IMG/VR virus record: IMGVR_UViG_3300025418_001025 | Coordinates: 1-23,476 of that record | Length of the DNA: 23,476 bases | Source: a virus | Reading direction: 5' to 3' (one strand) | In this document: positions 1,095 through 18,972 of the stretch, one piece after another | How positions within the stretch are numbered: the stretch's first letter is position 1 | Layout: the number at the start of each line of letters is the position of its first letter | Made by a program: the position numbers and the translations under genes | Notes under the pieces: model-generated | What the model was told of the DNA's origin: nothing | The model's input: the letters and a program-made list of their open reading frames with translations, nothing else | Databases searched by the model: none

Positions 1095-1122
1095 AGCAGT
1101 TCTGCAAATTTGCAGAGCTGCT
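1095..1122. repeat. Palindromic site 1 of 3 (core CTGCAAATTTGCAG)
   Basis: Two 14-base arms are self-complementary at all but one pair (1100/1117) around the centre AAA|TTT. Near-identical sites lie at 7143-7168, inside the ParB-like/MT-A70 gene, and at 18947-18972, before the portal gene. Here it sits between the rightward promoter and the first early gene, so it could be an operator, a partition-like site or an RNA hairpin. Confidence 0.8.
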
Positions 1123-1157
1123 CTGATACCTTTTATGCAAAACGCTGAAAGAAAGTA

Positions 1158-1550
1158 ATGAGAAAGCAAGTTGAGGCGTCAATCCAAAAATCAATCGTGG
1201 AGTATCTTCGTGCGGTCATCCCAAATTCCGTGGTCTTCGCAATTCCAAACGGCTCCCAACGAACGGCCTCTGGACGGCCAGCTAATGCAGTTGCCGGACT
1301 CCTGCCAGGAGCACCCGATCTCTGTGTGGTATTGCCGGAAGGTCGCGTCCTGTGGCTCGAGGTCAAATCAGATAAGGGAAGAGTATCATCGAATCAGATA
1401 CTGGTTCACGGTCTTCTTAACAGTCTGGGGCATCATTGCCCTGTCGTTCGTAGCGTTGATGATGTTCGTCATGCACTTGCATTTCTAAAGATAAAAACAA
1501 GAGAAGCAACTGGAGAAAATAACAATGCAAACATTTCGATGGACGAGTGA
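1158..1550 (+). CDS. VRR-NUC domain nuclease
   Basis: A 130-residue single-domain protein of the VRR-NUC (virus-type replication-repair nuclease) group. It has a short N-terminal helix (SIQKSIVEYL), the PGAPDL segment with Asp54, and LWLEVKSDKGR with Glu68 and Lys70, the PD-x-ExK catalytic signature. Family members act as structure-specific or Holliday-junction-like nucleases in replication and repair. It is the first gene of the rightward early operon and overlaps the GcrA-like gene by 26 bases. The ribosome-binding site is weak (GAAAG). The role in this phage, such as branch resolution or DNA processing, is inferred. Confidence 0.88.
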   Translation: MRKQVEASIQKSIVEYLRAVIPNSVVFAIPNGSQRTASGRPANAVAGLLPGAPDLCVVLPEGRVLWLEVKSDKGRVSSNQILVHGLLNSLGHHCPVVRSVDDVRHALAFLKIKTREATGENNNANISMDE

Positions 1551-2166
1551 AGCTATCCAATACCTGAGAGAGCAAGCTAAATCTGGTCTTTACTCAGCGA
1601 CTGACATTGCTGAGCAAATATCAGCTAAATTTAATATTGAATGCACTCGAAACATGGTCATTGGCAAAGCTAATAGGGAAAAAATCCCTCTTAGAAAAGG
1701 CGGGATTAATCCTAAAACTGGAAAGCCGTATGATTTTTGGAACGCTGAAAGGCGCAAATTACTCAATGAATTATGGGATAAAAACCTTCCCGTAGCTGAC
1801 ATTGGTTATCAGCTTCAATGCTCAAGCAGTTCAATTGCACGCGCGGCAAAAACATTTGGTCTTCCAGAAAGAGATAAGCATACAGTTTGTCGCGCATCAT
1901 CTAAAGAAAAGGCGATTATCACATCAGATAAAACAAAGGAGCTAACTGGAAATTGGTGGGAGAAAATAAATTACTGGCACCACCCAAACCCTAAGAAACT
2001 AACTCTTGTGCAATTAACCAGTAGATCGTGCCGATACATTGTCGGGGAGCCTAGATTGTCGTCTTACAAATATTGTGGCGCCGATGTTCCCTTAAATTCG
2101 CCAACGCCATACTGCGAGTATTGCGTGAAAGTTATGTATGCCCCAAGAAAAGAGAAGAGAAAATGA
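1525..2166 (+). CDS. GcrA-like cell-cycle regulator with two helix-turn-helix units
   Basis: A 213-residue protein with two GcrA signatures. The N-terminal DNA-binding segment has SATDIAEQISAKF followed by TRNMVIGKANREKIPL (residues 24-56), matching the TRNAVIGKxHR recognition helix of GcrA. The C-terminal segment has CRYIVGEP and YKYCGADV followed by PYCEYCVKVMYAP, with Cys169, 184, 197 and 200. In Caulobacter GcrA binds RNA polymerase sigma70 and activates promoters carrying methylated GANTC. Between these parts is a second SANT-like repeat (FWNAERRKLLNELWDKNLPVA, split here at 71-91, then IGYQLQCSSSSIARAAKTFGL), not usual in chromosomal GcrA. CEYC replaces the more common CEYH, which could complete a four-cysteine zinc site. 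GGAG lies nine bases before the start. It probably redirects host transcription. Confidence 0.8.
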   Translation: MQTFRWTSEAIQYLREQAKSGLYSATDIAEQISAKFNIECTRNMVIGKANREKIPLRKGGINPKTGKPYDFWNAERRKLLNELWDKNLPVADIGYQLQCSSSSIARAAKTFGLPERDKHTVCRASSKEKAIITSDKTKELTGNWWEKINYWHHPNPKKLTLVQLTSRSCRYIVGEPRLSSYKYCGADVPLNSPTPYCEYCVKVMYAPRKEKRK

Positions 2167-2576
2167 GAAAAGTTAGAAGAGCAGACAAGACCGCCGAGCT
2201 ATTAAAGGAGATCGACCGACTCAGGGCATTGGTTCCTGAGAGAGATAGGTTCCCAACAATAGTCACTCCTGAAATTATTCAAACTGTTGTGTCTGAGTAT
2301 TTCAATGTAGACAAGAGTTTTATGTCTGCTTACTCGACCTACGCGCAACACGTTGAGCCAAGGCAGTTGGCTATATATTTGACCCATAAAATGTGCGGTT
2401 ACAGCAAGTCTGATCTGGGGCGCCTTTTTAAGAGGAACCATTCCTCAATCATTAATTCATTAAGCAGGGTTCAACTATTGCTCTGCGATGATGAAAGGGT
2501 GACACACCAGGTTGCTGAATTAACTGATAAGTGTCTCAAAATGGCACAGTCTAATCGGCAGAAAATTAATAGGTAA
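2163..2576 (+). CDS. Orphan DnaA domain IV-like DNA-binding protein
   Basis: The chosen ATG at 2163 overlaps the previous stop (ATGA) and gives 137 residues. The same frame runs back to 2073, but that would overlap the GcrA-like gene by nearly 100 bases. The middle part, EPRQLAIYLTHKMCGYSK and DLGRLFKRNHSSIINSLSRV, matches the DnaA C-terminal domain, including the signature region that reads DHTTVxHA in DnaA and NHSSIINS here. The AAA+ ATPase part is absent. Domain IV binds DnaA boxes. A free copy could bind an origin on its own, compete with host DnaA, or regulate transcription. Its position between a GcrA-like gene and a nuclease/helicase operon fits a replication-control role. Function is inferred from fold only. 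Confidence 0.75.
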   Translation: MRKVRRADKTAELLKEIDRLRALVPERDRFPTIVTPEIIQTVVSEYFNVDKSFMSAYSTYAQHVEPRQLAIYLTHKMCGYSKSDLGRLFKRNHSSIINSLSRVQLLLCDDERVTHQVAELTDKCLKMAQSNRQKINR

Positions 2577-2640
2577 AAGAAAAGACCCGCGATCTTAGGG
2601 GAACGCGGGCCTTGACAAATCCCTGCGATGCGGGGTTTAT
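2573..2640. terminator. Pair of hairpins after the DnaA-like gene
   Basis: CCCGCG (2586-2591) pairs with CGCGGG (2604-2609). Read leftward, this hairpin is followed by TCTTTTCTTTT, a good intrinsic terminator for a minus-strand transcript. Just beyond, CCCTGC (2621-2626) pairs with GCGGGG (2630-2635), followed by TTTAT, a weak rightward terminator with a three-base loop. Together they may partly insulate the first early genes from the next block. Confidence 0.4.
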
Positions 2641-2729
2641 AGGTGTCTTGGCGAGCTTGCCGGCTCCCAAAACTATCACAGCGTTGATGATGAGGACCGC
2701 CATGACCAGCCACAGCGAGAGACTTCGCC

Positions 2730-2966
2730 ATGACTACTAAATCAACAAATATCCCAAATCTTATCCGATCTCAAGAGTGTGTTGCGCTAGACGCCGACAT
2801 TCTTAGTAATATGCGCTTGGCCGCCGAGTTCTACGCTCTGGCGCAGCATCATTACGACATCTTCGACACCGATGGCTATCTGTATTGCGTCGAGAAGCAC
2901 CTCGCGCATGCCAGACTCGTGTCTGAGTATCTTAAAAAACTGAAGAAGATGGAGCAAAAGTCTTAG
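2730..2966 (+). CDS. Small hypothetical protein, 78 residues
   Basis: Not recognised. The sequence is helical and mildly acidic (LDADILSNMRLAAEFYALAQHHYDIF), with a His- and Tyr-rich middle and a basic end (EYLKKLKKMEQKS). No signal peptide, membrane span or cysteine cluster was seen; it has two cysteines, in QECVAL and YLYCVEKH. A weak GAGAG ribosome-binding site lies about nine bases upstream. It stands alone between two non-coding stretches (2577-2729 and 2967-3368), unlike the tightly packed genes around it. Phage genes of this size are often host-takeover factors, but nothing here proves that. Confidence 0.6.
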   Translation: MTTKSTNIPNLIRSQECVALDADILSNMRLAAEFYALAQHHYDIFDTDGYLYCVEKHLAHARLVSEYLKKLKKMEQKS

Positions 2967-3368
2967 CATGAGCTAGTCTGCCTTTACCCCCTACCTCTCG
3001 CATAACTGAGCCTTTTGAGGCCCGTAGTAACTGTGGACTGAAAGTCGCATGGTGAAGGGGATTAAGCGAGGGAAGCGCCCTGAGTTGTGGCGTTAAACCA
3101 ATTCCACACGAAGAGACTGAAAGACTACGTCAGCGGCGCAATATCGACAGGTGGTATGCGTCGTCACCGGCAGATGAGATAGCAGCGGTTAAGGTCTGGT
3201 AAATGCTGCCCACCAGACCGTCAGGATTAGATTCTTGCCCACCCGCTTACCTGTGTGTGTCCTCTCGGAATGGCTCGTCCCATCCAACATGACCCACGCC
3301 TGTCCCCCATCAAGGGGGATAGGTGTGACATCAGAAAACTGAACCCTCCAACATAACCGAGGATTAAT
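2967..3368 (+). other. Gene-free stretch of about 400 bp with RNA-like folds
   Basis: No convincing gene was found on either strand; frames are short or lack a ribosome-binding site. Strong inverted repeats are present: an 8-bp perfect stem GGTCTGGT/ACCAGACC (3193-3200 with 3212-3219) and the 14-bp hairpin listed at 3295-3327. A GACTGAAAG string recurs (near 3036 and 3117). This is the longest gene-free piece of the rightward operon and could hold a non-coding RNA or a structured leader for the gene at 3369. A group I intron was considered and not supported. Confidence 0.4.
3295..3327 (+). promoter_or_regulatory. Strong hairpin upstream of the gene at 3369
   Basis: A 14-bp stem (3295-3308 with 3314-3327) closes on the five-base loop ATCAA. 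Its core is CCCCC/GGGGG. Two of the pairs are G-U and pair only in rightward RNA, which points to a plus-strand RNA structure rather than a DNA palindrome. It ends about 40 bases before ATG 3369 and has no U tract, so a role in translation control or RNA stability is likelier than termination. Confidence 0.5.
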
Positions 3369-3611
3369 ATGGCTAAGAAGAGACTGAGTAGGGCTGCCAG
3401 ACGAAGGGCGGCAAAATACCGGGAAATCGCAGAACATGCCCGGATGTTTGGGGATGCTCCTACCTACGAAGAGATACTGGCAGCCCGGACTGGCCCGGGT
3501 GGTTGGAAGAGGGCCAAGCTGGCTGAATGGGGAGTCGATTGGCCCCCGTATGCTGGCTGGATTGATGACCTAATTTGTAAGAGAGAGTTCCAAGATGCCC
3601 AGAATTTCTGA
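3369..3611 (+). CDS. Small basic phage protein, 80 residues
   Basis: The N-terminus is very basic (MAKKRLSRAARRRAAKYREIA, quoted only as far as residue 20 in its key part KKRLSRAARRRAAKYR). A second half follows with the pattern GGWKRAKLAEWGVDWPPYAGW. The G-W-x-(K/R)-x-x-L-x-x-W-G-V-x-W-P-P segment is one I recall from many small proteins of phages of Alphaproteobacteria, without an assigned function. GAGG lies about six bases before the ATG. The gene overlaps the next one by 17 bases. Binding to nucleic acid is plausible from the charge but unproven. Confidence 0.7.
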   Translation: MAKKRLSRAARRRAAKYREIAEHARMFGDAPTYEEILAARTGPGGWKRAKLAEWGVDWPPYAGWIDDLICKREFQDAQNF

Positions 3612-3804
3612 CGACATGCTCACGTTGAAAGAACTGGATAGCAGGTATCCAGAATCGGATGGAAGAAACAAATCTCGTAGATGTCAGACGGCTTCTAAGT
3701 TTAGGAACAAGCGTTTGGGCAAGTTTGGCGCTGCTTCCAAGGTAAGAATAGTTGATCCTGCATCAGTAAACGTTAGTAAATACCTGCAAGACGCTAAGCA
3801 ATAA
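3595..3804 (+). CDS. Small basic hypothetical protein, 69 residues
   Basis: Starts inside the preceding gene and ends just before the 3820-3847 promoter. The protein is Arg/Lys/Ser rich (SDGRNKSRRCQTASKFRNKR). It starts with TLKELDSRYP, which could be a short helix of an excisionase- or MerR-like fold, and ends with RIVDPASVNVSKYL, similar to the tail of small helix-turn-helix proteins that carry a wing. This is a weak resemblance only. The ATG at 3619 (MLTLKELD) is an alternative start that would remove the overlap. The length is too short for firm assignment. Confidence 0.55.
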   Translation: MPRISDDMLTLKELDSRYPESDGRNKSRRCQTASKFRNKRLGKFGAASKVRIVDPASVNVSKYLQDAKQ

Positions 3805-3819
3805 AATGTTATCTTCTAC

Positions 3820-3847
3820 TTGCACTAATCATCAAAGTGTGTATAGA
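3820..3847 (+). promoter_or_regulatory. Possible internal rightward promoter
   Basis: TTGCAC (3820-3825), a 16-bp spacer and TATAGA (3842-3847) sit in an 80-bp gap ahead of the hydrolase-like gene. AATGTTATCTT just upstream (3805-3815) resembles one arm of the early operator at 987-999. Confidence 0.35.
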
Positions 3848-3884
3848 TACGTTCATAAGAAACAATAGTAATATGGAGAATAAG

Positions 3885-4322
3885 ATGAGCCAATTCCTGA
3901 ACCCACCCCCGTATGCCCAAGAGATTGTAATCACCAGTGATGGCGGTGGTTATGTTAGCTCTTACAAAGAGGCTGCTTTTCGGTATTACATTAGTGGGAA
4001 AAAGATTAAGGTTGCTGGATCTTGCCGATCTGCTTGCACGTTATCGCTTAGCTATTCAAATGTCTGCGTTTTCCCGAATGCAATATTCAAATGGCATATG
4101 GCGTATGACGAGGACACGGGGATAAGGCGCCCAGATGTCACCAATCAAATGATCTCCGCTATGCCGCCGAGAGTCGCAGCCCGTTTGCGCGGTGTTGTGT
4201 CAAGGGATTACAACCCAAGCGCCACATTGACGGGTTATCAACTTATTGAGTTAGGCATAAAAGCATGCGTTAAATCCTATGAGCCAAAAAACACTAACCG
4301 ATCAATTATGTTCAATGACTAA
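3885..4322 (+). CDS. ClpP/crotonase-fold (SDH-type) hydrolase-like protein
   Basis: ATG 3885 is preferred because GGAG lies six bases upstream; the frame itself opens earlier, at a GTG (3837). The 145-residue product has a pattern I associate with small ClpP-fold serine hydrolases of the SDH group: a VITSDGGGYVSSYKEA strand-helix, then KVAGSCRSACTLSLSYS with the candidate nucleophile Ser49 flanked by cysteines 47 and 51, then CVFPNAIFKWHMAYDED with candidate catalytic His71. Many bacterial relatives carry a signal peptide and act in the periplasm; none is seen here, so the protein is probably cytoplasmic. Possible roles are cleaving a host protein or maturation, but substrate and activity are unknown, and the third catalytic residue is not clear. 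Confidence 0.6.
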   Translation: MSQFLNPPPYAQEIVITSDGGGYVSSYKEAAFRYYISGKKIKVAGSCRSACTLSLSYSNVCVFPNAIFKWHMAYDEDTGIRRPDVTNQMISAMPPRVAARLRGVVSRDYNPSATLTGYQLIELGIKACVKSYEPKNTNRSIMFND

Positions 4323-4653
4323 AAATCAACCATACCCAAAACTTAGAAACCTAATTCATCGTTTAAAAGAAAGAAAGGATGACAAGTCTGCATTGCAAGA
4401 TGCCGAGCTATGCCAAAACGTCTTAGACTTATTAGAAGCGCAAGATAAAATGATAAGACATTTGCGTGCTGATAGAATGGCAACAGAAATAGTTCAGTGT
4501 CATAAGGAAAGCGCAAGAATAATGGGTTTGCGCAATGTTATAAAAGACATCATTGATAACGTAAGCGCATCTCATCCAAAAGCAAAAGCATCAATCATTC
4601 AAGACAAATGGATAGATAAAGCTAAAGCAGAATTAGATTGGAGTAAAAAATGA
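4315..4653 (+). CDS. Helical small protein, first of the tandem coiled-coil series
   Basis: A 112-residue helical, charged protein. ATG 4315 overlaps the previous stop by eight bases and puts the LIHRL segment at the same distance from the start as the related segments in the following genes. An in-frame ATG at 4279 would give 124 residues; neither start has a clear ribosome-binding site, so coupled translation is likely. The pattern (NLIHRLKERKDDKSALQDAE, then VLDLLEAQDKMIRHL) resembles the gene at 4880 (LIEKL, HIELLDEMIDAQDKVI). No catalytic motif was seen. It probably oligomerises through its helices; function unknown. Confidence 0.6.
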   Translation: MTKNQPYPKLRNLIHRLKERKDDKSALQDAELCQNVLDLLEAQDKMIRHLRADRMATEIVQCHKESARIMGLRNVIKDIIDNVSASHPKAKASIIQDKWIDKAKAELDWSKK

Positions 4654-6609: not shown

Positions 6610-6803
6610 TGATGCAAAAGAAAACTGCTAAACAAAAGAACAATGAAGAAGCTGAGAAGGGTTCAACTGCGCGATACTGCAAATGCACAAGCCTTGCGAC
6701 ATTAGGAGTCGGGCATGATCGGCGCACAAAGTTTAATCCAGAGGGCGTAGAAAGATGGCTATGCCAGTATTGTTTTGATAAAGAAAAAGGGGAAAAGATA
6801 TGA
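6609..6803 (+). CDS. Small putative zinc-binding protein, 64 residues
   Basis: Begins at the A of the preceding TAA (a second ATG follows at 6612) and ends in a four-base overlap with the methyltransferase fusion. The N-terminus is Lys/Gln rich (KKTAKQKNNEEAEKG). The rest has four cysteines in two pairs, YCKCTS and LCQYCF, with the spacing C-x-C and C-x2-C, which could bind one zinc ion. GVERWLCQYCF resembles the second knuckle of small zinc-finger proteins. The tight overlap suggests co-translation with the fusion. Role unknown. Confidence 0.6.
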   Translation: MMQKKTAKQKNNEEAEKGSTARYCKCTSLATLGVGHDRRTKFNPEGVERWLCQYCFDKEKGEKI

Positions 6804-7957
6804 CTGACTACGCTTACGAAATTCACGATCTGGCTTTACTATTCCCACCAATGGGAAGGGTTGATTTCTATCAGTTATTGGTGGACATGCAGAAAAACGG
6901 TTTAGTTGAGCCGATTACTATTTATCAGAATAGAATCTTAGATGGTCGTAATAGATACAGAGCTTGCGAACAATTAGGGATAGAGCCTCATTTTATTGAT
7001 TATGAGGGGAACGATCCTCTTTCATTTGTTGTTTCAAAGAATTTATCACGCAGACATTTGAGCGAGTCCCAGCGCAGCATGATTGCTGGACGTATTGCTT
7101 ATATGAAGCCTGGCGGCACTGGCGCCAATCAACATAATACGAGCAGCTCTGCAAATTTGCAGAGCAGCATTTCTCAATCCGAGGCAGCTAAAAAATTAAA
7201 TGTATCAACTCGTTCAGTTTCAAGTGCTAGAAAGGTAATAGATACAGGTAATGAAGAATTAATTAAAGCGGTTGATAGCGGAGACTTGACTGTATCTGTT
7301 GCTGAAAAGATAGCTAAACTCCCAGAGCAAGATCAAAAGAAAGTTTTAGAATCTAAAAAACCAGCCGTAGATATTAAGAAAGTTGCCAGAGAAAAAAAGG
7401 AACGCGAGTTAGCCGCCAAACAAAAAGCATTACCAAATAGAAGATACGGCGTTATCTATGCTGACCCTGAGTGGAAGTTTGAAACTTACTCAGAGGACGG
7501 CAAGGATAGATCGGCTGAGAACCATTACCCAACGAGCACAACTGAAGAAATAGCATTAAGGAATGTCCCCTCTATTGCTGCGCAGGACTGTGTATTGTTT
7601 TTGTGGGCGACAGTCCCTATGTTACCAGATGCTTTAAGGGTTATGCACTCTTGGGGGTTTAAGTATAAGTCTCATCTTATATGGAATAAGGATAGACCCG
7701 GAACTGGCTATTGGTTTCGTAACAAACATGAGTTATTATTGGTTGGAACAAAGGGTAACATCCCTGCACCGGCGCCTGGCGGCCAGTGGTGGTCTGTTAT
7801 GGATGCGCCTGTTGGGAAGCACTCTGAGAAGCCGCATAAGGTTTACGAGTTAATCGAGAGCTATTATCCTAATGTTCCAAAGGTAGAATTAAACGCAAGA
7901 AACAAGAGGGACGGATGGTCCGTTTGGGGTAACGAAGCACCTGATAATGATGAATAA
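6800..7957 (+). CDS. ParB-like domain fused to MT-A70 adenine methyltransferase
   Basis: A 385-residue fusion. Residues about 10-100 form a ParB/Srx-like N-terminal domain (GLVEPITIY, ILDGRNRYRACEQLG, VSKNLSRRHLSESQRS). Residues 125-170 hold a helix-turn-helix (SQSEAAKKLNVSTRSVSSAR), as in KorB/ParB. A basic linker (KKVAREKKERELAAKQK) leads to an MT-A70 domain from about 213: YGVIYADPEWKF with the catalytic tetrad as DPEW (222-225), DCVLFLWATVPML, NKHELLLVGTKG and the C-terminal GWSVWGNEAP. MT-A70 enzymes transfer a methyl group from SAM to adenine N6. In phages this architecture is often used to protect or mark DNA. The canonical tetrad is DPPW; the E is a change at an active-site position. 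Palindromic site 2 lies within codons 115-123. It is coupled by overlap to the small zinc protein upstream. Confidence 0.9.
   Translation: MTDYAYEIHDLALLFPPMGRVDFYQLLVDMQKNGLVEPITIYQNRILDGRNRYRACEQLGIEPHFIDYEGNDPLSFVVSKNLSRRHLSESQRSMIAGRIAYMKPGGTGANQHNTSSSANLQSSISQSEAAKKLNVSTRSVSSARKVIDTGNEELIKAVDSGDLTVSVAEKIAKLPEQDQKKVLESKKPAVDIKKVAREKKERELAAKQKALPNRRYGVIYADPEWKFETYSEDGKDRSAENHYPTSTTEEIALRNVPSIAAQDCVLFLWATVPMLPDALRVMHSWGFKYKSHLIWNKDRPGTGYWFRNKHELLLVGTKGNIPAPAPGGQWWSVMDAPVGKHSEKPHKVYELIESYYPNVPKVELNARNKRDGWSVWGNEAPDNDE
7143..7168. repeat. Palindromic site 2 of 3, inside the ParB-like/MT-A70 gene
   Basis: Arms of 13 bases pair except at 7145/7166 around the AAA|TTT centre. It encodes SSSANLQSS in the linker between the ParB-like domain and the helix-turn-helix. 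It shares 24 of 26 aligned bases or more with sites 1 and 3, which are non-coding, so coding constraint alone does not explain the repeat. Confidence 0.8.
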
Positions 7958-7967: not shown

Positions 7968-9476
7968 ATGTCTGGAGAATTACGCCCATATCAAAAAGAG
8001 GCGATTGAACAACTACGTCTAGCACTAAGCGAGAAATTAAAACCAGTTTTGTCGGCGCCTACGGGTTCAGGCAAGACCCGTATTGCGTCTGAGATATTTG
8101 CCCTAGCCAGATCAAAGAATAAGAGGGTTTGCTTTGTCGTTCCCTTTATTTCTTTGATCAATCAAACGTGGAAGGCGTTTGTCAATGCTGGCATAGATGA
8201 GCGTGAAATGTCAGTCATACAGGGCAACCACATACTGACTGATTATTCTATGCCCGTTCAAATAGCGTCGATTGATACATTAGCGCGCAGAAAGAAATTG
8301 CCGGAAGCTGATATTATTATCTTCGACGAATGCCATAAGAAAAGCGTTGTTCATACTAGATGGATGCTAGAGTCCCCCAACTCTACATTCATTGGTTTGT
8401 CAGCAACGCCCTGGGCAAAAGGCATGGGCGCCATATGGGACAAAATGATTATTGTCTCGACGCCAAAGAAGCTAATCGACGAGGGCTATTTATCCAATTT
8501 TAGATACTTTGCCCCATCCAGCCCCGATCTTTCGGAAGTTAAGATCATTGCTGGTGATTATCAAACAGATCAGCTTGCATCAGCCATGAACAAGCCCGAG
8601 CTTGTCGCGGATGTTGTGACAACTTGGATGAAGCGCGGTGAGGACAGACCCACGTTTTGCTTTGCCGTTGACTGTTCTCATGCGAGGGCATTGCAGAGCC
8701 AATTCATACAGGCTGGCATTCCGGCGGCTTACATTGATGCTGAGACACCCGTTAAAGAGCGCGAAGATTTGGTAGATAAACTCCGTTATGGGGAGATAAA
8801 GATTATCTGCAATGTTGGCACAATGACGACAGGCGTAGATGCGCCGTTTGTTTCGTGCCTTATCATCGCTAGGCCAACAAAGAGCGAGATGTTGTATGTT
8901 CAGATCGTTGGCAGGGGCCTGAGAAAGTGTGAGGGTAAAGCGGATTGTTTGATCCTCGATCACAGTGACAATGGCATACGGATGGGTTTGCCTGATCAAA
9001 TTGAGTATTTCGACTTCTCTGATAAACCCGCAGAGGAGAAGCGCGTTGCAGAGCGTAAGAAGCGTGAGCGCAAACTAACTCCATGTCCATCCTGCCAGTT
9101 CCTAAAGCTGCCTAAAGAGAACGAGTGCCCATCTTGTGGGTTTGCGCCAAAGCATTCCAGCAATGTGATCTACATAGACGGGGATCTTGTGGAGCATGGC
9201 CGCAACGGTAAAATAGCCCTATCCACCAGAGCCGAAAAGCAAGAGTTCTGGTCAGGTCTTTTGTATTACGCCAAGGAGCGTAATTATCAGCGAGGCTGGT
9301 GCAGCCACAAATACAAAGAGAAGTTTGGTGTATGGCCGCAGGGATTGGTTGACTATGAAACCTATCCAACCCAGACCGTCCTCAACTTCATTAAGTCAAG
9401 AAACATCGCATGGGCCAAGAAAAAGAACAAACGTGAGAAGATTAGGGCTTTTGGCAATCTGATGGAGATCAGATAA
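7968..9476 (+). CDS. DEAD/DEAH-box (SF2) helicase with C-terminal zinc ribbon
   Basis: A 502-residue superfamily 2 helicase. It has an N-terminal Q-like motif (LRPYQKEAIEQL), Walker A SAPTGSGKTR (residues 29-38), DECH (120-123), LSATPW (144-149), a helicase C domain with VGTMTTGVDAP (282-292), and motif VI VQIVGRGLRK (311-320). A CPSC-x10-CPSC zinc ribbon follows (Cys373, 376, 387, 390). The last 110 residues are basic and Trp/Tyr rich (YAKERNYQRGWCSHKYK). Relatives in phages unwind branched or duplex DNA in replication and recombination. AAGGA lies nine bases before the start. It is the last gene of the rightward early operon, ending right at the repeat block. No primase or polymerase gene is visible nearby. 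Confidence 0.92.
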   Translation: MSGELRPYQKEAIEQLRLALSEKLKPVLSAPTGSGKTRIASEIFALARSKNKRVCFVVPFISLINQTWKAFVNAGIDEREMSVIQGNHILTDYSMPVQIASIDTLARRKKLPEADIIIFDECHKKSVVHTRWMLESPNSTFIGLSATPWAKGMGAIWDKMIIVSTPKKLIDEGYLSNFRYFAPSSPDLSEVKIIAGDYQTDQLASAMNKPELVADVVTTWMKRGEDRPTFCFAVDCSHARALQSQFIQAGIPAAYIDAETPVKEREDLVDKLRYGEIKIICNVGTMTTGVDAPFVSCLIIARPTKSEMLYVQIVGRGLRKCEGKADCLILDHSDNGIRMGLPDQIEYFDFSDKPAEEKRVAERKKRERKLTPCPSCQFLKLPKENECPSCGFAPKHSSNVIYIDGDLVEHGRNGKIALSTRAEKQEFWSGLLYYAKERNYQRGWCSHKYKEKFGVWPQGLVDYETYPTQTVLNFIKSRNIAWAKKKNKREKIRAFGNLMEIR

Positions 9477-9620
9477 ATAAGCATGCTTTTTCTGATGCAA
9501 TTTACTCAATGAAAATAAGCATGCTTTTTCTGACGCAAAATAAGCATGCTTTTTTAGTTACAGATTTGATCGTTAAGGAATAAGCATGCTTTCTTACTCA
9601 CAAAAAAGCATGCTTTTGTT
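9477..9620. repeat. Iteron-like array, five copies centred on GCATGC
   Basis: Five copies of AAATAAGCATGCTTTTT-like units, all in one orientation, have GCATGC at 9481, 9519, 9544, 9584 and 9608. Centre spacings are 38, 25, 40 and 24 bp. Each has the 10-bp palindrome AAGCATGCTT or a close form. The block is AT-rich and starts one base after the helicase stop. It could be an origin, a cluster of protein-binding sites, or a recombination hot spot. Confidence 0.85.
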
Positions 9621-9622
9621 AG

Positions 9623-9805
9623 TTAAGATTTCATTTCTGCGCGTATGGACTTTATATTTATGTCGTCCATATTGTCTACAAGGCGCAAGATTTCAGTAAC
9701 TATTTCTTGCGCCTCATCCTTGTCAATGGCGTCTACTAAATACTCCCTTAATTGAGGCGAGGATTTTTTAATACATCCTGTTGCTGTAACAAGGTATTTT
9801 GGCAT
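9623..9805 (-). CDS. Small hypothetical protein, 60 residues
   Basis: Start at 9805 is chosen over the ATG two codons upstream because AGGA then sits seven bases before it. The product MPKYLVTATGCIKKSSPQL (first part) continues into an acidic helix (AIDKDEAQEIVTEILRLVDN). The N-terminal strand with LVTATG suggests a small alpha/beta domain. No family recognised. The gene ends directly beside the five-copy GCATGC array and begins 20 bases after the stop of its neighbour. Confidence 0.58.
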   Translation of the reverse strand: MPKYLVTATGCIKKSSPQLREYLVDAIDKDEAQEIVTEILRLVDNMDDINIKSIRAEMKS

Positions 9806-9825
9806 TTCCATATCCTGCTATTGTA

Positions 9826-10155
9826 TTACATAAACTCCGGGCCTAACGGTCTGGAGTCTTCTATTTCTCTAAGGATTGAATCTTCATACCTATTGAGAAG
9901 CGCATCTTCTATAAGACCATAGAGGGGATTGGAACCGTCTAAATTAAGCGGCGACTCTCCCTTTTTAATGTTGTATATAACGATACTGTTGACAGAATAA
10001 ATAATGCCGCCGGGGCATCCGCTGTAAGCGTCCCCGTCATCTACCTCCCAACTTATTTCTGCCTCTCCCTCAACGAATAGCATATGATCTTTGTATGGGC
10101 GTAGTTCCTCAAATGTATAGGTAATGTCGCCGCTACTATCGTTTCTGTGTCTCAT
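9826..10155 (-). CDS. Acidic hypothetical protein, 109 residues
   Basis: Start at 10155 follows GGAG by eight bases; the frame extends further upstream only through the repeat, where it would spell part of the GCATGC unit (KKHAYFG). The protein is acidic, with beta-rich segments (DHMLFVEGEAEISWEVDDGD, then GGIIYSVNSIVIYNIKKGES) and a C-terminal helix. No motif recognised. Its 5' region, from the repeat through GGAGATA, is the same as that of the next gene upstream (10454), so the two share an expression module. Confidence 0.58.
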   Translation of the reverse strand: MRHRNDSSGDITYTFEELRPYKDHMLFVEGEAEISWEVDDGDAYSGCPGGIIYSVNSIVIYNIKKGESPLNLDGSNPLYGLIEDALLNRYEDSILREIEDSRPLGPEFM

Positions 10156-10167
10156 TGTTTTATCTCC

Positions 10168-10186
10168 AAAATAAGCATGCTTTTTT
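10168..10186. repeat. Single GCATGC repeat copy between two small genes
   Basis: One copy (GCATGC at 10175-10180), of the same orientation as the others, lies between the stop of the 10454 gene, which it touches, and the ribosome-binding site of the 10155 gene. Confidence 0.8.
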
Positions 10187-10454
10187 ATTGGCAAAATCCA
10201 TATAGATAAGCCTCTGCGGGTAGTGCATTTACAGGCATTGCTTCGAGTAGCTTTGCTATTTCTTCGCGTGTCCCTTCTCGACCCTCCTCGAACATGGATT
10301 GATTGTCATCAGATATATGGGACATTGCATACCATCGACGTTTGCCTTCAACGTAAGTTAAAACCCAATACTCATTTGGGTTATCCGTGTTAAAATCATA
10401 GTCGTGATAATTATCAAACCGATTACTAAGACCTGCAAAACGATATTTTGTCAT
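10185..10454 (-). CDS. Small hypothetical protein, 89 residues
   Basis: Start at 10454 is set by GGAGATA about eight bases upstream; the longer open frame runs back through three copies of the GCATGC repeat and is unlikely to be translated. The protein is polar, Tyr/Asp/Asn rich at the N-terminus (SNRFDNYHDYDFNTDNPNEY), then WVLTYVEGKRRWYAMSHIS with a likely beta hairpin, then an acidic helix (REEIAKLLEAMP). No family recognised. The stop codon overlaps the next repeat copy. Confidence 0.58.
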   Translation of the reverse strand: MTKYRFAGLSNRFDNYHDYDFNTDNPNEYWVLTYVEGKRRWYAMSHISDDNQSMFEEGREGTREEIAKLLEAMPVNALPAEAYLYGFCQ

Positions 10455-10466
10455 TGCTCTATCTCC

Positions 10467-10536
10467 AAAATAAGCATGCTTTTTTCTATGCAAAATAAGC
10501 ATGCTTTTTCTGACGCAAAATAAGCATGCTTTTTTT
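10467..10536. repeat. Iteron-like array, three copies at exact 25-bp spacing
   Basis: GCATGC at 10474, 10499 and 10524 gives two intervals of exactly 25 bp. The last two units and the stretch between them match copies 2 and 3 of the 9477-9620 array over about 43 bp, which makes the two arrays direct repeats about 1 kb apart that flank three small genes. Confidence 0.85.
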
Positions 10537-12064: not shown

Positions 12065-13636
12065 TTATTCGGCTGCAATTGCATAATGCTCATGCGCGTT
12101 TGCTGTTTCCGGCGCAATGTCAAAGCGCTCGCGTGTTACAGGGTAATGATCTAGATAGCCCTTTAGATATTTCTTGCCATCATGCTCGAATATCTCGATT
12201 TCATCTTCATCTATGATAAAATTGGGGACCATTTCAACAAGGTCATAATACCAGCAAATAGCCCTATATTTATTATTAACAGTTTTAGCCCTTTCAACTA
12301 CAACCTTAGTATGCTCCACTTCATTGGCATAGATTTTATTATTATATTCATACGAGTGCATTTCTAGCGCGCCATATGACCATAGTTGAGTGTTACCTTC
12401 ATCATCAATTATTACTGTGTGAAGATCATCGAATGAATATTGCTCGTAATATTCGCAATAGTTGGCGTTTCTTTCGACATATATGGAAAGGTAGCATTCT
12501 TCATCAACAAAAGTGTGATCTACTGTTTCCGAATAATATTCTTGTGTCCCTTGGCAATAGAAAGAATAACCATTCCGGCAATATCCGCACCAATTTTGAC
12601 TGCGAGTCCTGCTCGCATTTGTGTAGACTTCTCTAAAATCTTCATCAGTGTCAAAATTATCGTTGCACGAATCGCATGTAAATTCCCCTCGTAATGGGAC
12701 TTCGCCTTCAGTCTTTTGCGCGTTAAAACCTGTTCTATCTATTATCAAATAATCGGTCATATCAGTAATATGGCCCGACTCGTCCAAATATGGGCAAACT
12801 AGATTGTCATTATCATTAATGACACGAAGCAAACGGGCGCCATCTATAGATTTATATTCATGAGAGTAATAACGGCTCTTATTATACCCGGCCGCCTGTA
12901 GCAGATTGTGCAAAATATCAGTGTCAGCGTAGACGCGAGAATATAGTTTTTTCTCCGGCCAACAAAGCGCCCTTGCGATAGTTTGGCCGTCATCATTGGT
13001 GAGGTATGCGACGGCAAGATCCCCGGCGCCATATACTCTTACAGGATGATAATAATTGCCTTCTACTCTTGCCCAATGCTCTTCATAGTATCTCATGCAG
13101 GAAACGCCGACAGATCGGGCGTTTTCGTCGTAATTGGTATAGACCGCTTCTATATCGTCCTCACTATAGGCGAATTTCAACTCCGACTCTAGCGCGCTTG
13201 CATGGGCAAATTGCGCGCTGATGATTTCTTGCGCTTCAGTCTCTTGAATCGCTCCAGCGTCAATCAATAGTTTGACATAGCCTTGAATAGAGATAAGGCT
13301 TTGCTTATCAGCGGCACCCTTTAGAGCATCTTTAGTATAGGCAATTAGAGAAGGCTTTTTCTTTGCGATATGCGCAAAGTGTAGTGGGAAATTATCAAAG
13401 GATAAAGCCTGGAGTCTTTTCTGCAATGGCTTATACTCTCCAAAGTCAAATCTAGATTTTTCCCTATCCTGCCAATTAGATTCCGTTTCCGTTTTTAATT
13501 CTATTTTGCGCACCTGGAAGCGGCGCCCAACCTTTAGCGTTAGCAAACGAGCGGCACGACTAGCCCTTTTACCGTCCTCAAATGTAATGCGAGATTCTAG
13601 CGTTTCTTGAGATTCTAGATTGATAAGTGTGAACAT
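12065..13636 (-). CDS. Large acidic zinc-ribbon protein of unknown function, 523 residues
   Basis: Not assigned to a named family. The N-terminus (about 1-60) is basic and beta-like. Residues 175-285 have the pattern VGVSCMRYY, HPVRVYGAGDLAVAYL, ARALCWPEKKLYSRVYAD and GARLLRVI, which I recall from large hypothetical proteins of phages. Residues 321-361 carry CDSC, CGYC and a further Cys361, likely a zinc ribbon. The rest is very acidic and Tyr-rich (YCEYYEQYSFDDLH). It has its own likely promoter (13675-13703) with a flanking inverted repeat, suggesting separate control from the genes upstream. GGAG lies eight bases before the start. A role in takeover or nucleic-acid binding is possible, not shown. 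Confidence 0.75.
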   Translation of the reverse strand: MFTLINLESQETLESRITFEDGKRASRAARLLTLKVGRRFQVRKIELKTETESNWQDREKSRFDFGEYKPLQKRLQALSFDNFPLHFAHIAKKKPSLIAYTKDALKGAADKQSLISIQGYVKLLIDAGAIQETEAQEIISAQFAHASALESELKFAYSEDDIEAVYTNYDENARSVGVSCMRYYEEHWARVEGNYYHPVRVYGAGDLAVAYLTNDDGQTIARALCWPEKKLYSRVYADTDILHNLLQAAGYNKSRYYSHEYKSIDGARLLRVINDNDNLVCPYLDESGHITDMTDYLIIDRTGFNAQKTEGEVPLRGEFTCDSCNDNFDTDEDFREVYTNASRTRSQNWCGYCRNGYSFYCQGTQEYYSETVDHTFVDEECYLSIYVERNANYCEYYEQYSFDDLHTVIIDDEGNTQLWSYGALEMHSYEYNNKIYANEVEHTKVVVERAKTVNNKYRAICWYYDLVEMVPNFIIDEDEIEIFEHDGKKYLKGYLDHYPVTRERFDIAPETANAHEHYAIAAE

Positions 13637-15498: not shown

Positions 15499-15534
15499 GG
15501 CGTCAATTCCTGGTTAGTTAGGGGAAGGGATAGA

Positions 15535-15551
15535 GCGCCCTATTCGGGCGC
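15535..15551 (-). terminator. Intercistronic hairpin 1 of the leftward operon
   Basis: 6-bp stem GCGCCC/GGGCGC with loop GAATA (minus strand), followed by TCTATCCCTTCCCC. It has the same arrangement as the hairpin at 15165-15185: stop codon, hairpin, pyrimidine tract, leader. Confidence 0.4.
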
Positions 15552-15559
15552 CCATAGTT

Positions 15560-15955
15560 TTACATATTGTCAGCTAGGCAATAGGTGTCTGCTAGAGCAT
15601 TGGCATTCTGAACAATGCCAGTCATGATTTCATTGTCAGTATGATCACAAATGACATCATGGCCGTCATTTCCGTAGACAAGGTATATTGAACCAATTTT
15701 TTTCTTATTGGCTTGGTCAAGGATAATTAGATATTCTTCATCCGCCGCATGGATTTCTGCGAGAATCTTGGCGACCATTTCTTGCGTATCGTTTTTGACG
15801 CCGCCTGTAGCTGCTAGATAATGGCTGTCCATATTGATAGGATAGACGGTTACTGTGTTTTCTTCTCCGTCATTATGTCGGACGCCATAGCCTTGCTCTA
15901 ATGCAGACTCGACTATTGTTGCGATAATAGCCCGTTCCATTTGCTGAGTGTTCAT
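15560..15955 (-). CDS. Hypothetical protein, 131 residues, first gene of the leftward operon
   Basis: An acidic protein with an N-terminal helix (QQMERAIIATIVESALEQGY), a strand region (ENTVTVYPINMDSHY), a second helix (TQEMVAKILAEIHAADEEYL) and a C-terminal alpha/beta part (KKIGSIYLVYGNDGHDVICD). I do not recognise the family. AAGGGATC stands about eight bases before the start. It is the promoter-proximal gene, immediately beside the divergent control region, a position often taken by regulators or early takeover proteins. Confidence 0.62.
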   Translation of the reverse strand: MNTQQMERAIIATIVESALEQGYGVRHNDGEENTVTVYPINMDSHYLAATGGVKNDTQEMVAKILAEIHAADEEYLIILDQANKKKIGSIYLVYGNDGHDVICDHTDNEIMTGIVQNANALADTYCLADNM

Positions 15956-16013
15956 ATTGCTAGATCCCTTGTTGGTGCTTCGATGGTTGTAGAGTGCGCC
16001 TTCCCGTTAATTC

Positions 16014-16019
16014 TGTCAA
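16014..16019 (-). promoter_or_regulatory. Perfect -35 box for the leftward operon, -10 unclear
   Basis: TTGACA occurs on the minus strand about 60 bp upstream of the 15955 start. The hexamer at the expected distance is CACTCT, a poor -10, so the promoter may need an activator. Given the phage GcrA-like protein this is interesting, but no GANTC lies at it. Confidence 0.35.
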
Positions 16020-16024
16020 CTCCG

Positions 16025-16051
16025 TTGATGGCTTTCGTTGAAGCATATAAT
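16025..16051 (+). promoter_or_regulatory. Possible rightward promoter, 15-bp spacer
   Basis: TTGATG (16025-16030) and a perfect TATAAT (16046-16051), with a 15-bp spacer that is shorter than ideal. An imperfect palindrome follows at once. Confidence 0.35.
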
Positions 16052-16067
16052 GCGGCAGGATGTCGCA
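16051..16067. promoter_or_regulatory. Imperfect palindrome, possible operator
   Basis: TGCGGCA-GGA-TGTCGCA pairs at six of seven positions and overlaps the end of the TATAAT above, where a bound repressor would block initiation. Confidence 0.35.
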
Positions 16068-16106
16068 GCATAATAACAGATAAAGGATAAGCAGTTGATT
16101 TTAGTA

Positions 16107-16134
16107 TTGATTATGGTTTGTTTATTGATATAAT
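16107..16134 (+). promoter_or_regulatory. Rightward promoter of the packaging and head operon
   Basis: TTGATT (16107-16112), a 16-bp spacer and a perfect TATAAT (16129-16134), about 40 bp upstream of the first rightward gene. The best promoter by eye in this half of the window. Confidence 0.6.
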
Positions 16135-16173
16135 GGGCGAGATAATATTTTTTATTTTGGGTAAGGGAATCTG

Positions 16174-16407
16174 ATGACTGAGCGGCAGTTTGAAGAAATA
16201 TGCGAGATTTTGGAAAGCATTAGCGCAAGCCTGGCGCGCATCAGCGAGTCGATCGACTCTTTGCCTAGCACGACGGATATGGACAATCTGATATACGAGA
16301 TAGGCAAGTTAAAGCCTTTAACCGTCCAAACTGCCAGCGGTAATACTCAGGCGCCGGAAACGGTAAAGGCGCGTTATTGCGCAGACGTTTCAGAGGATAG
16401 ATTTTAG
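16174..16407 (+). CDS. Small coiled-coil protein at the head of the late operon
   Basis: A 77-residue protein starting after AAGGGAATCTG. The N-terminal half is a helix or coiled coil (ERQFEEICEILESISASLAR, then ISESIDSL), followed by a polar linker and KARYCADVSEDRF. The start resembles that of the gene at 4650 (NDKQFDALLSALNGIAIELG) in the early region. It lies directly after the late promoter and before the small terminase. Candidate roles include a packaging accessory or regulator, but there is no motif to decide. Confidence 0.62.
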   Translation: MTERQFEEICEILESISASLARISESIDSLPSTTDMDNLIYEIGKLKPLTVQTASGNTQAPETVKARYCADVSEDRF

Positions 16408-16462
16408 AAACTATTTAGGGTAATATTTTGGGAAAGGGTAAACCAACCGCAGAGCTTAAAAG

Positions 16463-16924
16463 ATGCCTCCTCTCTCTAACCAAAGACAAGAGCGTTTCTG
16501 CCAAGAGATAGTTATAAACAAAAAGCCACCATATCGAGCTTACGTTGACGCTGGATATAAGAAAGACAATGGGGCGCCGTATCGCATGTCAGGATATGCC
16601 AGAGTAGCGAACCGAATAGCTGAATTAAGAGAACAGCTACAGAATGACGGTTTAGATGATAGAGAGAGAATAAAACTGCATATGGCTTGGTTAGCCTTCG
16701 CAGATATAGACCATAAGACAATTAAACCAGAGTTAAAGCAGAAAGCATTGAAGGATCTAGCGCATTTAGAAGGCTTTATTATAGAGCGGAGTGAGAGAAG
16801 GACGCTAAAGGAAGGCGAGCAGTTCACAACCGCTAGTGATCTTATAGAGGCGATAAAAGAGCGGCTGCTACTGACAAAGCAAGATGACGGCAGTTACGGT
16901 CTGGGCGAAGAAACAGAGTCATGA
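16463..16924 (+). CDS. terS: Terminase small subunit
   Basis: A 153-residue protein with the Terminase_2-like N-terminus: SNQRQERFCQEIVINKKPPY, RAYVDAGYKK, then YARVANRIAELREQLQ. The helix-turn-helix part recognises the packaging site; the central part (DDRERIKLHMAWLAFADIDH) and C-terminal helix should form the ring and contact the large subunit. Length is normal. It overlaps the large subunit gene by four bases (ATGA), the usual arrangement. The ribosome-binding site is weak. The C-terminal LIEAIKERLLLTK is a likely helix that meets the motor. The call rests on N-terminal motif plus context. Confidence 0.85.
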   Translation: MPPLSNQRQERFCQEIVINKKPPYRAYVDAGYKKDNGAPYRMSGYARVANRIAELREQLQNDGLDDRERIKLHMAWLAFADIDHKTIKPELKQKALKDLAHLEGFIIERSERRTLKEGEQFTTASDLIEAIKERLLLTKQDDGSYGLGEETES

Positions 16925-18699
16925 GCGGACTGAGTGATCTGCGTGAGATCCTGGAGCAGATAGACCTATCTACATTATCTCAGCGGGATCTGAATTGGCT
17001 TGACGCTATGACAGCGCGAGCACAAAGCCTTTCATTGAAAGAGTCGGCAGAGCAAAGCCTGACAGAGTTTATTCGCCAAGCCTGGAGCGTATTAGAACCA
17101 GCGATCCCTTATCAGCATGGGCGCCATATAGACGCTATGGCTTTCCACTTGGAGCATATCCTTGGCGGCGAGCATGCTGGCGAGATAACGCGACTCTGCA
17201 TTAACATTCCTCCCGGCCATATGAAGAGTCTGCTATCGGTCTTTTACAATGCTTGGTTGATAGGCCCAAAGCAAAGGCCAGACATTAGATTCTTGCGTGT
17301 ATCGCATAGCCAAAGCCTAGCCATCCGTGACGTCGTAAAGACAAGGCGACTCGTGCTAAGTGATTGGTTTCAAACGAATTGGCCCACCCCGGTGTCATCA
17401 GATCAAAACTCCAAGATCAAATTCGAGCTTGAGGGGACCGGTTGGGTGGAGGCATGCGCCGCGAATAGCGTGACCGGAGCGAGAGGGGACATACTGTGGC
17501 TCGATGACATTAATTCCGTGACCGGGGCCATGTCGGATGCCGAGCGTGAGTCTACAATCAATTGGTTTCTAGAAGCTGCTCCGACGCGGTTGAATAGGCC
17601 GGGTGTGGGCCCCAATGGGGAGCCTCCTAGTGCTATTGTTAATGTGCAACAGCGGCTGCATGAGGAGGATATTACTGGGGTGATATTGGATAAGGGTTTG
17701 CCGTATGTGCATTTATGTTTGCCTATGGAGTATGACCCTGACCGTCATTGTGAGACTGAGATAGGATTTAGTGACTGGCGTAGGGAGGCTGGGGAGCTTT
17801 TATTTCCTGAGAGGTTTAATCGTGAGACTGTAGAGCGGGACAAGGCTGTTATGGGCCGTTGGGCTGTTGCGTCTCAGTTTCAGATGGCTCCGACGCCTCG
17901 GGGTGGCGGGATATTACCGAGGGATCATTTTATATTGTATGATGCTGAGGAGGCGGCTGCGAATGGTCATTCGACGGCTGGGGTATATCCTGATATGGAT
18001 TATGTATTGGTGAGTTGTGATCCTGCGTATGGTGAGAAGCAGGAGAATGATGCGAGTGGTGTTGTTGTATTGGGTATTTGGCAGAAGGCTGGTTTATCTG
18101 CGAAGGCATTATTGACGCGTCAGGGTGTTCGGCATGATTTGATTGATGACCGGGATACGTTGCCGAAGGTTATGGTTATGTATGTGGCGAATTACCGGGT
18201 GCCGTTGCATGGTCCTGAGTTAGTTCCCCAGGTTGGGGAGTCGGAGAGCATGTTTCGTAGGCGTCGGATGATGAGTTGGGGTTTGGTTGAGCATTTGATG
18301 CATTTGTGTGAGAAGTTTAAGGCGAACAAGTTAATTGTTGAGGCGAAGGCGAATGGTATAACTGTTGGGCAGGAGATCCAGCGGTTGAACAGGAATTCCA
18401 GTTGGAATTGTGAGTTGGTTAATCCGGGGAATTTGGACAAGGTTGCGCGGGCTCATGCGATTAGTCCGATCCTTGCGAATGGGACGGTTTATGCTCCGGA
18501 TCGTGATTTTGCGGATTTATTGATTAATCAGTGTTCTACGTTTCCCAAGGGGAAGCATGATGATTTGGTTGACGCGTTTACGCAGGGTTTGGGGTATTTA
18601 CGCAGGCATGGTTATTTGAACCGTGCGGAGGATATAGCGGTTCAGATTAAGAATGAGGCGCTGCATCGCAAGGTTTCTTCTCCTATTTATACGGTGTAG
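16921..18699 (+). CDS. terL: Terminase large subunit
   Basis: A 592-residue packaging motor. It has an ATPase domain with the Walker A-like CINIPPGHMKSLL (residues 93-105), Walker B with ILWLDDIN (191-198), and a coupling region VNVQQRLHEEDITG (240-253). The RNase H-like nuclease domain follows: VSCDPAYG with Asp367, KLIVEAKANG near 470, and KHDDLVDAF (545-553) with paired Asp. It cuts concatemers and drives DNA into the prohead. Walker A lacks the usual GKT and reads PPGHMKS, as is normal in this branch. From about codon 240 (near base 17640) the DNA becomes strongly G- and T-rich and C-poor, unlike the first 240 codons, suggesting a mosaic junction. Coupled to the small subunit by ATGA. Confidence 0.95.
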   Translation: MSGLSDLREILEQIDLSTLSQRDLNWLDAMTARAQSLSLKESAEQSLTEFIRQAWSVLEPAIPYQHGRHIDAMAFHLEHILGGEHAGEITRLCINIPPGHMKSLLSVFYNAWLIGPKQRPDIRFLRVSHSQSLAIRDVVKTRRLVLSDWFQTNWPTPVSSDQNSKIKFELEGTGWVEACAANSVTGARGDILWLDDINSVTGAMSDAERESTINWFLEAAPTRLNRPGVGPNGEPPSAIVNVQQRLHEEDITGVILDKGLPYVHLCLPMEYDPDRHCETEIGFSDWRREAGELLFPERFNRETVERDKAVMGRWAVASQFQMAPTPRGGGILPRDHFILYDAEEAAANGHSTAGVYPDMDYVLVSCDPAYGEKQENDASGVVVLGIWQKAGLSAKALLTRQGVRHDLIDDRDTLPKVMVMYVANYRVPLHGPELVPQVGESESMFRRRRMMSWGLVEHLMHLCEKFKANKLIVEAKANGITVGQEIQRLNRNSSWNCELVNPGNLDKVARAHAISPILANGTVYAPDRDFADLLINQCSTFPKGKHDDLVDAFTQGLGYLRRHGYLNRAEDIAVQIKNEALHRKVSSPIYTV

Positions 18700-18703
18700 G
18701 TTG

Positions 18704-18937
18704 ATGGTTTCAAAGCTCCCGAAGGCTGAGTTTAAACAGATGGATTTTATATCGAGTATTGATGGGCGGTCGTTTATTGAGGATGTTTTGTTGAGTTTTG
18801 ATAATGAGGTGAGCATTAGGATTGAGCGGGCGAGTTCTAGTGATTTCGGTGAGATTATGTATTTGCAGATGGCTTATTGTGATGCTCGCAAAGAACTGGA
18901 GAGCTTTTTAAGTTGTTTGGGCCACGGACCTCACTGA
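18704..18937 (+). CDS. Small hypothetical protein between terminase and portal
   Basis: Start at 18704, five bases after the large terminase stop (a TTG precedes it directly). The same frame extends back inside the terminase gene but that is unlikely to be used. The 77-residue product (VSKLPKAEFKQMDFISSIDG, then EDVLLSFDNEVSIRIERASS, then MAYCDARKELESFLSCLGHG) is alpha/beta with two cysteines near the end. Not recognised. Its DNA shares the C-poor, G/T-rich composition of the second half of the terminase gene, so both probably came together in one exchange. Confidence 0.58.
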   Translation: MVSKLPKAEFKQMDFISSIDGRSFIEDVLLSFDNEVSIRIERASSSDFGEIMYLQMAYCDARKELESFLSCLGHGPH

Positions 18938-18946
18938 GTAGGGCGA

Positions 18947-18972
18947 GCAGCTCTGCAAATTTGCAGAACTGC
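18947..18972. repeat. Palindromic site 3 of 3, upstream of the portal gene
   Basis: 13-base arms pair except at 18951/18968 around AAA|TTT. It lies in the 97-bp gap between the small gene and the portal, an intergenic position that fits an operator, a transcription-RNA signal or a partition/packaging site. Confidence 0.8.

Follow-up and report, generated by a model that had tools for sequence, protein, structure and literature searches.

The question raised by this locus is why one palindrome occurs three times in a virus record, once inside the gene of a ParB-like protein, and which protein reads it. The DNA concerned is the IMG/VR record IMGVR_UViG_3300025418_001025, a virus record of 23,476 bp (this whole stretch is called the window here), and the gene, at 6800-7957, encodes a ParB-like protein joined to an MT-A70 methyltransferase domain. 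Based on the comparisons below, the three palindromes are probably the cognate sites of this ParB-fold/helix-turn-helix (HTH) protein, with a probability of about 0.85. The original prediction had described three near-identical palindromes of 26-28 bp with one mismatched pair each, two of them intergenic and one coding; both the palindromes and their placement were confirmed, and essentially none is expected by chance. The three copies are located as follows.

1095-1122, no strand: palindrome copy 1, intergenic, between the divergent YqaJ (323-958, minus strand) and VRR-NUC (1158-1550, plus strand) genes.
7143-7168, no strand: palindrome copy 2, within the ParB-like/MT-A70 gene 6800-7957, where it encodes the linker SSSANLQSS (residues 115-123).
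18947-18972, no strand: palindrome copy 3, intergenic, ending 62 bp 5' of the portal start at 19035.

The core CTGCAAATTTGCAG is found in three exact copies (1102-1115, 7149-7162 and 18953-18966), about 1e-4 being expected from base composition. With up to two mismatches the same three sites only are found; 100 dinucleotide shuffles give a mean of 0.19 and none reaches three. The 26-mer including the arms, with up to three mismatches, is also present at only three sites (each on both strands; shuffle mean 0.00). Within the spans listed above, the mismatched pair is pair 9 in copies 1 and 3 and pair 11 in copy 2, and copy 3 is the exact reverse complement of copy 1 over 28 bp.

The protein encoded at 6800-7957 has a ParB-type N-terminal fold, a ParB-like HTH and an MT-A70 domain, arranged as follows.

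6800-7957, plus strand: ParB-fold/HTH/MT-A70 protein of 385 amino acids; best PHROG match phrog_21315, function unknown.
6824-7102, plus strand: ParB-fold N domain (approximately residues 9-101), similar by profile to Spo0J and Noc and by fold to ParB, Noc and KorB.
7103-7141, plus strand: N-terminal arm and disordered linker, about residues 102-114, of low predicted local distance difference test score (pLDDT); family columns 104 and 106 track the outer half-site bases.
7172-7246, plus strand: HTH, residues 125-149; predicted recognition helix 137-149 at 7208-7246, with the code residues 137, 138, 141 and 142.
7445-7936, plus strand: MT-A70 (METTL3-like) methyltransferase domain, residues 216-379; domain and fold match.

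Concerning the N domain, profile matches are found to Spo0J (1vz0, E 9.7e-6) and Noc (E 7.4e-5). Only methyltransferases were among the 50 matches listed for the full-length model, and the N-terminal part was therefore modelled and searched alone. The N-domain fold matches Caulobacter ParB 7bm8_A (Z 10.0, root-mean-square deviation (rmsd) 2.4, 81 aligned); fold matches are also seen to KorB 8qa9_B (Z 10.4, rmsd 4.8, 178 aligned) and ParB 7o0n_A (Z 10.8, rmsd 13.3, 154 aligned), and those of Foldseek cover both the N domain and the HTH (1vz0_A, 184 columns, E 4.3e-6). The HTH part resembles those of Spo0J-parS 4umk_A (Z 7.4, rmsd 3.2, 91 aligned) and Noc 6y93_A (Z 7.2, rmsd 2.8, 93 aligned), Z values which, being under 8, may on their own reflect just a common arrangement. 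In the motif alignment DGRNRYRA is aligned with GERRYRA and SKNLxRRHL with ENLQREDL; the window protein has K80 where Glu precedes Asn. Its score against TIGR00180 (ParB/RepB/Spo0J partition protein), 15.1 bits, is below the cut-off of 58.45, so it is described here as a ParB-fold protein and is not filed as a canonical ParB. At E <= 0.001, a threshold on E and not the curated cut-off, 44 of 99 family members match TIGR00180. The MT-A70 domain scores 78.4 bits against PF05063 (cut-off 23.9) and matches the fold of METTL3 (E 4e-14).

We drew homologs from viral contigs and bacterial genomes and located their linkers, between N domain and HTH, with a hidden Markov model profile, which mapped 157 of 208 distinct open reading frames (ORFs) and was used instead of a motif regular expression that found 11 linkers only. 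The 51 unmapped ORFs, many of them truncated genes or methyltransferases with other N domains, are excluded from all counts. A perfect palindrome of 12-30 bp is present in the linker of 106 of the 157 mapped homologs (105 within the linker slice). When synonymous codons are randomised and the amino acids kept, 9.0 linkers with a palindrome of at least 12 bp are expected against 105 observed; for at least 14 bp the figures are 5.6 and 86, and for at least 16 bp 1.5 and 65. Stretches of equal length elsewhere in the same genes contain a palindrome of at least 12 bp in 52 of 1,532 cases. In 83 of 107 cases, palindromes of at least 14 bp in family genes have their centre 0-60 nt 5' of the HTH anchor. 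The share of linkers with a palindrome is 3/24 below a profile score of 150 bits and 102/133 above it. Canonical ParB differs from the window family in this respect: in the equivalent stretch of the canonical ParB ORFs of the same bacterial genomes (identified by motif in 21 of 30 fetched loci), a palindrome of at least 12 bp is found in 1/21 and one of at least 14 bp in 0/21.

The palindrome types across the family include GCAAATTTGC, CCAATTGG, TCAATTGA, GAAATTTC and GCAGATCTGC, and 94 of the 106 linker palindromes have an AATT centre. All codon phases are used (phase 2, 59; phase 1, 44; phase 0, 3). Bacterial contigs with palindrome-bearing members include those of Kaistia, Lysobacter, Rhizobium, Hoeflea, Chthoniobacter and Actinomadura, as well as assemblies of a Bacillota and a Planctomycetota. 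Of the 114 members with a linker palindrome of at least 10 bp, 99 were scanned for domains: 47 contain MT-A70, five Dam and four an N6_N4 methyltransferase domain, the MT-A70 share being biased upwards because the first homolog searches used the MT-A70 fusion. MT-A70 homologs with another N domain lack a palindrome of at least 12 bp near such a place in eight of nine cases, four having none in the gene; in the exception (L052) the mapped stretch contains a palindrome of 18 bp, which is CG-rich. The link proposed earlier between site and fusion therefore holds for the ParB-fold/HTH part and not for the fusion itself. An FtsK gamma domain match is also seen in one palindrome-bearing member (alignment A3), and a PADLOC mad2 match in five, so that the reader is combined with modules of various kinds.

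Looking at each base of the half-site separately, the palindromes covary with the recognition helix of the protein that the same gene encodes. Mutual information between half-site bases and all protein columns was calculated for 68 non-redundant members (114 ORFs with a palindrome of at least 10 bp, 106 after a near-identity cut, 90 with an AATT centre). Base 6 goes with residue 141 (z 23.0, 1.51 bits), base 3 with residue 142 (z 15.4), bases 4 and 5 with residue 138 (z 11.2 and 12.6) and base 7 with residue 137 (z 11.8). The other high-signal columns are 136 and those of the linker, 117-122, which are trivial as they encode the palindrome itself; N-domain columns reach a z of 3.9 at most. At base 6, R or K at residue 141 is accompanied by C, E, Q or T by G, and A by A, while R142 is paired with G at base 3 in 22/22 members; an Arg facing G on either strand is expected from HTH chemistry. 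The same DNA, GGCAAATTTGCC, in phase 0 (encoding GKFA) and in phase 2 (encoding ANLP) accompanies the same ERSVR-type helix.

These rules were applied to a held-out set of 48 new mapped ORFs, obtained by a separate scan with another query and from the plasmid and phage loci L268-L270. A palindrome of at least 12 bp is present in 30 of them, and 31 with an AATT centre were scorable. A recount free of near-duplicates (L271/L272, L274-L276, L280-L282, L283/L284) used 24 non-redundant members, with HTH identity below 85% to the training set and to each other. Base 6 was predicted correctly in 25/29 (majority baseline 7/29; non-redundant 19/22, baseline 7/22), base 3 in 28/29 (20/29; 21/22, 13/22), base 4 in 29/29 (23/29; 22/22, 16/22) and base 7 in 19/28 (6/28; 15/21, 6/21).

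The sites extend beyond the bases that follow the recognition helix. Pairing between the two DNA arms, in 90 members, is 0.97 at position 6, 0.84 at 7, about 0.7 at 8-10, 0.89 at 11 and 0.77 at 12 (positions 1-5 are given by the selection of members), and drops beyond position 12 to 0.43 and then 0.33, arm-swap controls giving 0.29-0.46. In a test free of classes, the outer bases covary with residues whose codons immediately precede the palindrome (base 9 with column 104, base 11 with column 106, z 11.3 for each). By class of protein arm, and at paired positions only, base 11 is T in 21/21 members with GRP, G in 15/15 with RTD and 15/16 with GG, C in 24/24 with xNQH/Y and T in 9/9 with GQR/GVR; these classes were drawn by eye after the data had been seen, 19 of 119 rows remaining unclassified. 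GRP, the core of AT-hook motifs, is contained in many family arms, with T-rich outer half-sites (e.g. L043, L048, L239).

Site and reader also change together between close relatives. Among 117 members there are 70 pairs (many sharing members) in which the N domains are at least 75% identical and the half-sites differ; the mean identity of their recognition residues is 0.32, against 0.79 in 45 pairs with the same half-site. In the DNA alignments of L128/L274, L128/L140, L040/L046, L043/L045 and L213/L206, a dip in identity of about 120-240 columns spans the linker, the palindrome and the HTH, which is why a joint change is deduced. The flanks of the dip are mostly 80-100% identical on both sides in the first three pairs; in L040/L046 a further dip follows the first, and in L043/L045 and L213/L206 the similarity is lost once more past parts of the gene. 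The alignments indicate that linker, palindrome and HTH are exchanged as one stretch of about 120-240 bp. That close relatives exchange it suggests that selection favours divergence, as it does in systems of incompatibility or of self/non-self discrimination.

Concerning copies outside the gene, 41 contigs of members with GCAAATTTGC-type sites, some of them fragments, were searched with the pattern BGCAAATTTGCV; one (G001) is a near-identical relative of the window, and G002 and G003 probably represent a single phage. In 34/41 nothing but the in-gene copy matches; the other seven contain ten extra copies, of which nine share the class of the in-gene site. The reversed pattern, used as a control, has one match in all 41. 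Across the family, a member's own palindrome core is found outside the gene in 3/106 loci (mismatched null 0-1 per shuffle, 20 shuffles). A genome-wide regulon as a general role is rejected, since the in-gene site stands alone in most contigs and the core recurs in so few loci. The coordination of early and late modules that had been proposed is possible for the window, with its extra copies at the early divergent region and before the portal gene, but 34 of the 41 contigs, some of them fragments, show the in-gene copy only. The extra sites of L192 and L123 precede ORF starts, that of L123 a Nu1-like ORF (a likeness judged by eye), and some of the remaining ones fall inside ORFs. One member without an in-gene palindrome (L262) has a 24-bp TGCA-class palindrome 170 nt 5' of its open frame, as its residue A141 predicts. 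In-gene sites had been expected in IncP-7-type plasmid relatives and were not borne out in those inspected: pCAR1 (L268, 4705) and L270 (3768) have none, but have a GCAAATTTGC site between parB and the ParB-like gene. A 24-bp TGCA-class palindrome is also present in a 524-aa ORF of another phage contig (L350, centre 2006, G038), whose own reader is of the CGCA class; it is perhaps a site for another protein.

Cognate recognition is the economical reading of these data, because of the code, the held-out test and the exchange. The idea, put forward originally, that the in-gene site is read in a parS-like manner by the ParB-like protein itself is thus strongly supported at the level of sequence. 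Several observations weigh against it. No perfect palindrome of at least 12 bp is present in 51 of the 157 mapped members (17 of these have an 18-bp dyad with one mismatched pair, a figure for which no null was computed, and others have none) or in 18 of the 48 held-out ones; linker palindromes are also absent from the distant relatives on plasmids (pCAR1, L270, L342, L343) and at phage loci (L269, L337-L340). Chance may account for some of the palindromes counted, which are GC-rich or lie in another type of N domain (L052, L119, L138). Half-site base 8 gives no recognition-helix signal in the 68-member test, and held-out base 5 was predicted barely above baseline (26/29, baseline 23/29; non-redundant 19/22, 16/22). 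The base-6 rule is broken by 3/22 non-redundant held-out members and again by L341 (K141 by eye, site TGCA). The S141 of the window protein is the sole S in the training set, and its GG-type arm departs from the outer-base pattern of its class. To these are added the solitary in-gene copy of the 34 contigs and the absence of a ParA match among the nine window ORFs of at least 200 aa (Pfam, PHROGs or both; the window is a fragment).

Under cognate recognition, a dimer would read the site of roughly 24 bp in two parts: residues 142, 138, 141 and 137 of the recognition helix would contact half-site bases 3, 4-5, 6 and 7, and the arm just before the linker palindrome (columns 104-106) would contact outer bases 9-12. 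As arm, site and HTH are all found within some two hundred bp, recombination could move them as one matched cassette, giving new specificities with the pair unbroken. As for the role of the in-gene site, we lean towards a parS-like loading point as the main one, where the protein may load as a clamp and slide. A parS-like site inside the gene would mean that any DNA carrying the gene also carries the address of its protein. The loaded DNA or nearby promoters might then be acted on by the attached domain, which in the window protein and in roughly half of the scanned members is an adenine-type methyltransferase; through the two extra copies in the window, this action would also reach the early divergent region and the portal gene start. 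A further step is tentative and rather unlikely to hold in full: only DNA with the gene would be loaded, and the clamp would spread from its in-gene address and carry the methyltransferase or another module over its own phage genome in cis, thereby marking it, and related phages would diversify the cassette by recombination as compatibility or immunity types.

Two precedents favour a parS-like loading site. B. subtilis parS-359 is one of several chromosomal parS sites. Like the window site it lies inside the gene of its binder, parB (PMC4442127). For the Streptomyces plasmid SCP2, the accessible part of the report places parS within parT, the gene of its own ParB-like binder, by chromatin immunoprecipitation sequencing (ChIP-seq) and bio-layer interferometry; the site is an 18-bp inverted repeat with loading and spreading (PMC12260392). 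ParT differs in having no CTPase domain and in partnering ParA, and a fixed place before the HTH across a family, a code and cassette exchange are not described in that part of the report (PMC12260392).

The main rival to parS-like loading is local regulation, and both could hold together. The in-gene site, and with it the two intergenic copies, would then be an ordinary operator, used by the protein as a roadblock or as a KorB-like sliding repressor of its own and neighbouring transcription, with no partition or self-marking. This alternative shares the claim of a cognate site and differs in function; we hold it possible, at somewhat less than even odds. It is consistent with the intergenic position of the two extra window copies beside gene starts, with the upstream palindrome of L262 and with the second L192 site, directly 5' of an ORF start, and KorB is described as sliding to promoters up to 1.5 kb away and repressing them (PMC11790492). 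However, about 340 nt into a gene is an unusual place for an operator, yet a recurrent one here, and the 34 contigs have no second copy. On balance parS-like loading is favoured.

Three other explanations are disfavoured. Mobile palindromic elements, of which those of Rickettsia are an example, could insert where they are tolerated, in the linker and between genes; the model predicts the linker to be disordered, all three codon phases are used and extra copies occur in seven contigs, but a mobile element predicts neither a palindrome that tracks the recognition helix and arm of its own protein, nor its fixed place, nor the usual one copy per contig, and we regard this origin as very improbable. 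The same low probability is given to an RNA hairpin in the mRNA that would pause translation or control the mRNA: hairpins can form from long inverted repeats, and looped stems are mildly in excess (gaps of 1-12 summed, 39 observed and about 17 expected, mismatched palindromes contributing), whereas the main excess is of loop-less dyads (gap 0, 86 observed and 5.7 expected), the covariation is with HTH residues, and intergenic copies exist. A site marking a host factor, favoured by nothing except the palindromic shape, is the least credible, as the genes of close relatives carry different palindromes, each matching its own HTH.

Part of this is already known, namely phage fusions of the ParB fold with methyltransferases (PMC12704722) and in-gene parS from the single cases of SCP2 parT and B. 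subtilis parB. The ParB-CTPase-fold survey describes ParB-fold proteins that are orphans and that, in phages, frequently form fusions with predicted DNA methyltransferases, and it names MT-A70 fusions for archaea; unlike the present analysis, it covers domains and nucleotide binding, and the stem 'palindrom' occurs 0 times in its main text (PMC12704722). KorB-OB of RK2 (PMC11790492) and ParB/Noc (PMC7383237) also combine a ParB fold with an HTH that reads a palindrome, with few residues of the DNA-binding region setting specificity; other residues and bases are involved, and a site in the gene beside the HTH is not described in the accessible parts of these papers. In the parts available, a report on a phage ParB homolog found no parS (PMC3918226), and the phrase 'within the parB gene' in another refers to engineered mutations (PMC12207404). 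In the open-access literature, most subscription journals lying outside this scope, no earlier description of a family-wide, code-readable and exchangeable in-gene site was found. Target-recognition domains (HsdS) and phage immunity regions are cases in which a specificity module is swapped between near-identical backbones. In the window family, unlike in these, the coding sequence of the module also contains the DNA target, which moves with it. Should binding be confirmed, the linker of the gene itself would tell which DNA is read by many phage and bacterial ParB-like proteins that are so far uncharacterised. The family would then also offer naturally occurring data from which to derive a protein-DNA recognition code for the ParB/Noc/KorB fold, would supply orthogonal protein-site pairs and would allow the function of orphan ParB-methyltransferase fusions to be tested directly.

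The other genes of the window include GcrA-like, DnaA-C-like, terminase and portal genes, and megablast of the window against phage records gave no match. At E <= 0.001, neither Pfam nor PHROGs gives a match to a 523-aa ORF at 12065-13636 (minus strand). Another family of repeats, AAAATAAGCATGCTTTTT, with the palindromic core AAGCATGCTT, is present at 9474-10535, in six listed copies around short ORFs.

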